DNA from: Chromobacterium paludis
Lineage (GTDB): Bacteria > Pseudomonadota > Gammaproteobacteria > Burkholderiales > Chromobacteriaceae
NCBI RefSeq assembly: GCF_008275125.1
Contig: NZ_CP043473.1
Span: 2,728,001 to 2,792,000 of the forward strand
Direction: 5' to 3'
DNA: 64,000 nucleotides
A program made the translations under genes and the position numbers. The notes under the pieces are model-generated. The model searched no databases and had not been told where the DNA came from. It saw nothing but the letters and a program-made list of their open reading frames with translations. Within the stretch, counting starts at the first letter, position 1; the number at the start of each line of letters is the position of its first letter. Below, in pieces: positions 51,851-51,972 of the stretch.

Positions 51851-51904
51851 ATGAATACCGCACCCGCATTCGCAATCCGATTTTGGTGGTGGCGCCTCTC
51901 CTAG
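51851..51904 (+). CDS. Trp-rich leader peptide of the trpS attenuator
   Basis: A 17-codon frame, [17 protein letters not shown], ending in TAG. Codons 12-14 (51884-51892) are three consecutive TGG. This is the sensor of a ribosome-mediated attenuator: low charged tRNA-Trp would stall the ribosome on TGG and let the antiterminator form. Only a weak GAAG precedes the ATG. It is too short for routine gene calling but the Trp triplet, rare by chance, and the following hairpins support function. Confidence 0.8.
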
Positions 51905-51905
51905 G

Positions 51906-51972
51906 CGGCACCGGCGAACGCGCACGCAAAAAACCCGGAGGCTGCCGACAAGGCGCACCGGGTTTGTTTTTT
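51906..51972 (+). promoter_or_regulatory. Transcription attenuator of trpS (antiterminator/terminator switch)
   Basis: Terminator: AAACCCGG (51931-51938) pairs with CCGGGTTT (51958-51965), then TTTTTT. Antiterminator: CGGCA (51906-51910) pairs with TGCCG (51943-51947) and CCGG (51911-51914) with CCGG (51935-51938), which sequesters the left terminator arm. The antiterminator's left arm sits immediately after the leader stop codon, so a ribosome finishing the leader would cover it. The geometry is that of classical trp attenuation. Confidence 0.8.

Follow-up and report, generated by a model that had tools for sequence, protein, structure and literature searches.

The window is a stretch of 64,000 nucleotides of the Chromobacterium paludis genome. 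Toward its end lies a gene for tryptophanyl-tRNA synthetase (TrpRS), trpS, preceded by a short Trp-rich leader and a series of potential hairpins. An ORF without a family match (51498-51818) stops 32 nt 5' of the leader, and a gene for a chorismate mutase type II protein follows trpS. The features of the locus are given below.

51815..51844, + strand: predicted promoter, with a -35 TTGACG at 51815-51820, an 18-nt spacer, and a -10-like TTTGAT at 51839-51844; the predicted start is the A of the leader ATG at 51851
51851..51904, + strand: leader peptide of 17 codons, ATG at 51851 and stop TAG at 51902-51904; translation predicted from a leaderless transcript
51884..51892, + strand: three tandem Trp (TGG) control codons, from the sequence reading and conservation in relatives
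51887..51913, + strand: hairpin 1:2, 51887-51897 with 51903-51913, -17.1 kcal/mol; spans the Trp codons and the stop
51904..51946, + strand: antiterminator 2:3, 51904-51914 with 51935-51946, -18.3 kcal/mol; covariation
51931..51965, + strand: terminator hairpin 3:4, 51931-51938 with 51958-51965, -20.0 kcal/mol; covariation
51966..51972, + strand: terminator T-tract GTTTTTT, from the sequence reading
51982..52008, + strand: region 5, with complementarity to 51936-51963 (region 3, loop, region 4) and, via 51994-52004, also to the trpS Shine-Dalgarno
52020..52023, + strand: trpS Shine-Dalgarno GGAG (region 6), pairing with CTCC at 52001-52004; further outward, CGGCA at 52026-52030 pairs with TGCCG at 51994-51998
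52030..53052, + strand: trpS, type A tryptophanyl-tRNA synthetase, 340 aa (TIGR00233, PF00579); an alternative in-frame ATG at 52018
53066..53371, + strand: chorismate mutase type II protein, 101 aa (PF01817, 7e-16), 13 nt past the trpS stop

The original prediction had described a 17-codon leader with three tandem TGG codons and a stop, followed by mutually exclusive hairpins and trpS. The leader can be read directly in the sequence, folding returned 2:3 and 3:4 in agreement, the T-tract follows as described, and the downstream protein scores 240.5 bits against TIGR00233 (cut-off 176.75). The anatomy from the leader through 1:2, 2:3, 3:4, and the T-tract to trpS was confirmed to the base. The extent of the attenuator, which had been given as 51851..51972, stood for the core; the element reaches further both ways, to the promoter-like sequence on one side and to region 5 and the Shine-Dalgarno on the other. 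The core resembles a trpL-type attenuator in having a short leader ORF with clustered Trp codons, a 1:2 hairpin that overlaps the control codons and the stop, and a mutually exclusive antiterminator and intrinsic terminator with a U-tract, the latter being lost in some relatives. The terminator segment (51925-51972) folded better than all 200 of its shuffles (z -3.0). The segment with the antiterminator alone was not outstanding against shuffles (z -0.85), and support for the antiterminator therefore comes from conservation. A whole-genome scan with the pattern TGGTGG-N(0-30)-TARGCGGC returned 10 matches, two of which overlap each other at the trpS site, compared to 15 for a reversed control pattern, and was not significant.

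The C. paludis genome contains two trpS genes: the attenuated one, called type A, and a type B gene at G000:C1:801566-802753. The two proteins are 46% identical over the first half of type A and 37% over its second half. The original prediction of a Trp attenuator before trpS held by anatomy and sequence tests, with the amendment that the gene is the second trpS type and not the ordinary one. No Trp-rich leader was found before type B trpS at any of 11 genus loci read, including the copy in the same genome. Among 61 genomes of the family, type A was present in 58, both types in 54, B alone in 3, and A alone in 4. In a sample of 399 genomes of the order, type A was found at E<=1e-100 in 57, of which 13 belong to the family. 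Among 274 genomes sampled from the class, C. paludis and two or more further members of its order included, type A was found in one genome besides C. paludis, where it had no leader. In one order genome (G115) the sole trpS match was a leader-bearing type A, another (G091) carried two type A genes (L102, L105), one with and one without a leader, and in B. anthina type A lies on chromosome 3. In other words, type A is an extra, patchily distributed trpS that is usually accessory and occasionally the sole copy.

Type A carries the motif DAQALT (Gln) at the place of DWHALT (His) in type B. We take this position to matter for indolmycin, and the Gln/His difference is possibly relevant to TrpRS inhibitors; a literature search on the position and indolmycin gave nothing usable. 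Of 19 genus loci, 17 had a chorismate mutase homologue; 14 of these homologues lie no more than ~170 nt from trpS, and the other 3 are 0.7-1 kb off. From its position, the gene is possibly co-transcribed with trpS, and because it lies near trpS at most genus loci, the attenuator may also control an enzyme of the aromatic pathway.

If the leader is a regulatory element, its Trp codons should be kept in relatives and its hairpins should show compensatory changes, as the original prediction had anticipated. In the family, 57 of the 58 type A genes were preceded at the same place by a tandem-Trp leader, and the 58th (G030) by the single-Trp leader MPSRSSLPSLNWRR, which is also the leader of Crenobacter intestini. 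Elsewhere in the order, type A occupied 45 places in 44 genomes, with 24 tandem-Trp leaders, one single-Trp leader, and 20 places without a leader found. A named set, consisting of the best 80 loci among the matches listed and repeating some family and order genomes already counted, gave 52 tandem-Trp leaders, 11 single-Trp leaders, and 17 loci without a leader found, one of which (L229) could not be judged because its upstream DNA is too short. Automatic flagging of the named loci had given 51, four of them spurious on reading (L226, L232, L244, L245). The true leader of L226, like that of L204, lies further upstream, and three Janthinobacterium leaders contain WWSR. Leader-bearing genera include Burkholderia, Paraburkholderia, Cupriavidus, Herbaspirillum, Massilia, Janthinobacterium, Chromobacterium, Aquitalea, and Paludibacterium. 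In a tree of 59 chosen TrpRS proteins, which was rooted at the midpoint and whose deep placement is unsure, all leader-bearing rows (33 tandem, 6 single) fell into one group of 52 rows with support 100/94. The 13 leaderless rows of the group, for example Methylophilaceae, Collimonas, and two of three Undibacterium, are nested within it, which suggests that the leader was gained early and lost several times.

Covariation was scored in 32 of the 56 distinct family leaders, hand-picked for diversity, against shuffles that ignore relatedness. Compensatory changes were found in both hairpins: the score of 3:4 was reached by 0 of 500 shuffles and that of 2:3 by 3 of 500. Hairpin 1:2 was paired in 95% of alignment cells and almost invariant, and so it contributes no covariation evidence. 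Control positions obtained by sliding had fewer paired cells for each of 1:2, 2:3, and 3:4. RNAalifold found almost no structure in a mixed alignment of 82 leaders, in our view because of competing alternative pairings and lineage-specific terminator stems. Six or more T in the 10-base tail were present in 54 of the 82 leaders, including that of C. paludis, and 20 had a T-poor tail (4 or fewer of 10), counts that depend on where the script ended the terminator stem. A usable T-tract was missing from seven family genomes, five of Chromobacterium (L017-L021) and two others (L063, L068).

Where does transcription of the leader begin? A strict promoter scan listed nothing at the C. paludis leader, and it was the conserved spacing that revealed the site. 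In 104 of 133 leaders, TTGAC was present at a distance of 35-37 nt upstream of the ATG (57/57 family, 20/25 order, and 27/51 named, the last repeating some genomes of the other two sets). A TTGAC anywhere within 60 nt of the ATG was present in 77 of 82 leaders, compared to 2.8 expected. For 123 of 133 leaders, the best sigma-70-like site put the predicted start either on the ATG or on the base just preceding it. The predicted start fell within -4 to +2 of the ATG in 129 of 133, compared to 22 of 133 in one shuffle each; where there were several in-frame ATGs the nearest one was taken, which favours a start at the ATG in leaders and shuffles alike. A Shine-Dalgarno-like tetramer before the leader ATG was rare (2/133). 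These observations indicate that the leader RNA is probably leaderless, with transcription starting at the leader ATG or one base upstream.

The leader, the Trp codons, the hairpins, the complementarity of region 5, and the promoter-like position are established features of the locus, and we infer every regulatory step from sequence. The attenuator would keep the accessory TrpRS low when Trp-tRNA is plentiful and raise it when Trp-tRNA is scarce. The predicted transcription start coincides with the leader ATG or adjoins it, and a ribosome would thus load on leaderless RNA. With sufficient Trp-tRNA, the ribosome would reach the stop codon and cover region 2, 3:4 would form, and RNA polymerase would terminate near 51972. 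With Trp-tRNA in short supply, the ribosome would stall on the Trp codons, 2:3 would form and prevent 3:4, and trpS would be transcribed, read-through perhaps extending to the chorismate mutase gene. Transcription attenuation as the core of the element is very likely.

A second layer may be added by region 5. The region 5 duplex of C. paludis reaches -33.1 kcal/mol (p 0.007). The complementarity of region 5 to region 3, tested by shuffling the right side, gave p<=0.05 in 73 and p<=0.01 in 56 of 81 leaders, many of them close relatives, with a mean z of -3.5; one of the 82 leaders was too short. Partners from the same leader paired with a mean of -31.9 kcal/mol, compared to -22.0 for partners from other families. 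In the family alignment, helix 3:5 displayed 17 double-change cells, and none of 500 shuffles attained its covariation score. Among the named loci, p<=0.05 was obtained in 27 of 35 testable ones, four of which (L187-L190) are family again, and 11 more left the script too little sequence. These 11, and five p values of 0.72-0.88 that were counted as obtained, result from the frequent choice of the 3:5 hairpin itself by the automatic terminator finder.

Region 5 would work as follows. When 3:4 has formed, region 5 would be free to cover the trpS Shine-Dalgarno and leaked transcripts would be silent. When 2:3 has formed, the single-stranded loop and region 4 would offer region 5 a foothold, and region 5 would then take region 3 and leave the Shine-Dalgarno open. 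The mean unpaired probability of the trpS Shine-Dalgarno was 0.15, compared to 0.25 in shuffles, and below 0.3 in 71 of 82 leaders; in C. paludis it was 0.00 whether or not region 3 was included (shuffles 0.05). Adding region 3 to the folding hardly freed the Shine-Dalgarno (0.15 to 0.19). Equilibrium folding gave no switch, the Shine-Dalgarno being free at 0.17 with a stalled ribosome and 0.18 with one that had finished. Covariation of the 5:6 pairing in a fixed register was weak and not significant (69/500 shuffles).

Crude co-transcriptional simulations are parameter-dependent and partly contrary to the switch model. The C. paludis leader fitted the model in one setting, and across settings 15 of 18 'starved' simulations formed the terminator 3:4, contrary to the model. 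Altogether, 3:4 and a fully paired Shine-Dalgarno were the end state of 30 of 36 C. paludis simulations, and 3:5 was that of the remaining six (three 'starved', three 'replete'), five of which had the Shine-Dalgarno free; these end states show no more than that the two pairings are mutually exclusive. Simulations of L017 took no consistent direction across settings. Among 22 simulated leaders and with cut-offs of our own, 7 showed the expected switch of the terminator and 2 the opposite one, and Shine-Dalgarno access was fully as expected in 3 (L004, L013, L046) and opposite in 2 (L022, L110). An action of region 5 on translation is a tentative proposal with somewhat less than an even chance.

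One alternative is that classical transcription attenuation operates alone, region 5 forming a passive hairpin in the 5'-UTR that might, for instance, stabilise read-through mRNA. The core elements would suffice for regulation, and the long 3:5 hairpin, whose end lies 12-33 nt from the trpS ATG, would leave the Shine-Dalgarno free; the weak 5:6 covariation and the lack of a Shine-Dalgarno switch in folding also point this way. This model comes close to an even chance without reaching it. Against it are a Shine-Dalgarno that is hidden beyond the shuffle level and the lineages that have lost the T-tract but retain the leader and region 5. In L017-L021 region 5 was kept with p 0.003 and the Shine-Dalgarno was unpaired at only 0.00-0.01; in L063 and L068 the corresponding values were p 0.056 and 0.037, and 0.24 and 0.04. 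The 20 T-poor leaders, which include those of the seven family genomes, together with a Shine-Dalgarno that is predicted to be mostly paired in 71 of 82, could mean that attenuation acts mainly on translation, with the terminator in a secondary role. However, most leaders, that of C. paludis included, have a T-rich tail and 3:4 covaries, and a mainly translational mechanism is unlikely.

The trpS genes of Firmicutes use T-boxes, and a T-box or other tRNA- or protein-sensing leader was considered for this reason. An Rfam search of the region returned two chance matches up to E 5, neither a T-box nor the Trp_leader (which we take to be RF00513), and the Trp codons are conserved in an open leader frame; the T-box reading was rejected as highly improbable. 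A constitutive terminator of the upstream ORF, which ends so close to the leader, combined with a chance short ORF was likewise rejected, its probability being negligible when the leader, its Trp codons, and the promoter spacing are conserved in many genomes. A ribosome-mediated attenuator of an accessory trpS, in which region 5 possibly adds a second decision at translation, can be held as the best overall explanation with good confidence from these sequence comparisons.

The same design appears to precede other genes. A covariance model of the leader was searched in the 399 order genomes, 50 of which matched at E<=0.01. Of 17 further regions matched by the model and read, 6 were judged to be attenuators and 11 chance matches. 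Three of the six (L170, L171, L172), from three genomes of one family, precede a sodium:neurotransmitter symporter (PF00209, checked in two), one of them being cut at a contig end; the symporter may be a candidate Trp transporter. The other three (L173, L175, L176), from three order genomes, have WWRF leaders and stand before operons that contain trpG (GATase PF00117, checked in two). Region-5 tests with mononucleotide shuffles in five of the six gave p values of 0.037, 0.073, 0.017, 0.030, and 0.070. As a separate observation, Trp and Arg codons are interleaved in a possible leader (MAFLPCPASWRWRRP...) of C. paludis itself, which was seen upstream of trpE (L129, G000:C1:1317351-1318712) and overlaps the trpE start.

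Several known systems share parts of this design. E. coli trpL operates by the 1:2 / 2:3 / 3:4 attenuation logic and, like the leader here, encodes W-W-R. Unlike the leader here, it precedes trpE and not trpS; the stretch before trpL is AAAAAGGG, and its region-5 test gave p 0.22 on only 12 bases. E. coli pheST (pheM) is controlled by attenuation and likewise has a leader peptide before an aminoacyl-tRNA synthetase operon, with Phe rather than Trp as the amino acid and p 0.12 in the region-5 test. Eight E. coli attenuators were fetched as controls, of which 7 were testable. Two had a region-5-like match, leuA (L271, p 0.023) and ilvB (L274, p 0.037), and the other five had none at p<=0.05; because two passed, region 5 may occur more widely than in this group. 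Vecchione and Sello reportedly described in 2010 an attenuator of an auxiliary, antibiotic-resistant trpRS in Streptomyces. As here, the candidate attenuator of Streptomyces stands before a second trpS while an ordinary trpS is located elsewhere in the genome. An attenuator has been predicted before trpS2 of S. avermitilis in a paper that also names pheST attenuation (PMC1262725), and the housekeeping TrpRS enzyme of Streptomyces is described as separate from the auxiliary one in PMC9437257. Streptomyces belongs to another phylum, and the available portions of PMC1262725 mention neither region 5 nor a leaderless leader.

A leaderless leader peptide, as predicted here, has been reported for Sinorhizobium meliloti, where the trpLE(G) attenuator RNA begins with the trpL ATG (PMC7298713). 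S. meliloti is an alphaproteobacterium, its attenuator controls trpE(G), and region 5 is not mentioned in the accessible part of that source. The trpS mRNA of Caulobacter, another alphaproteobacterium, has a putative small leader CDS as here, whose mechanism is not described in the accessible part of PMC4117421. A search of the open literature for TrpRS/trpS attenuation with a leader peptide, Betaproteobacteria included, found no report of this element; subscription papers lay mostly outside the search. Attenuation of an auxiliary trpS was already known in Streptomyces, and the additions here are the predicted start at the first RNA base and region 5.

Taken jointly, these features could describe a composite attenuator of the Burkholderiales. 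Region 3 would have three partners (2, 4, and 5), region 5 would also pair with the Shine-Dalgarno, and a single stalled ribosome on leaderless RNA would set both read-through and the start of translation. Some T-tract-less lineages would be purely translational, and the module would serve an accessory or sole TrpRS, the symporter (maybe a Trp transporter), and trpG operons. This joint reading is speculative and, on balance, somewhat doubtful.

Leader-peptide control of TrpRS, known from an actinobacterial case, would with the attenuator of type A trpS extend to the Betaproteobacteria, where the element is widely conserved. The attenuator suggests a way in which a second TrpRS could be kept back and then induced as Trp-tRNA falls. 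Should region 5 work as proposed, the lineages would form a natural series in which one stalling leader controls transcription, translation, or both, and the evolutionary passage between transcriptional and translational modes would become directly testable.
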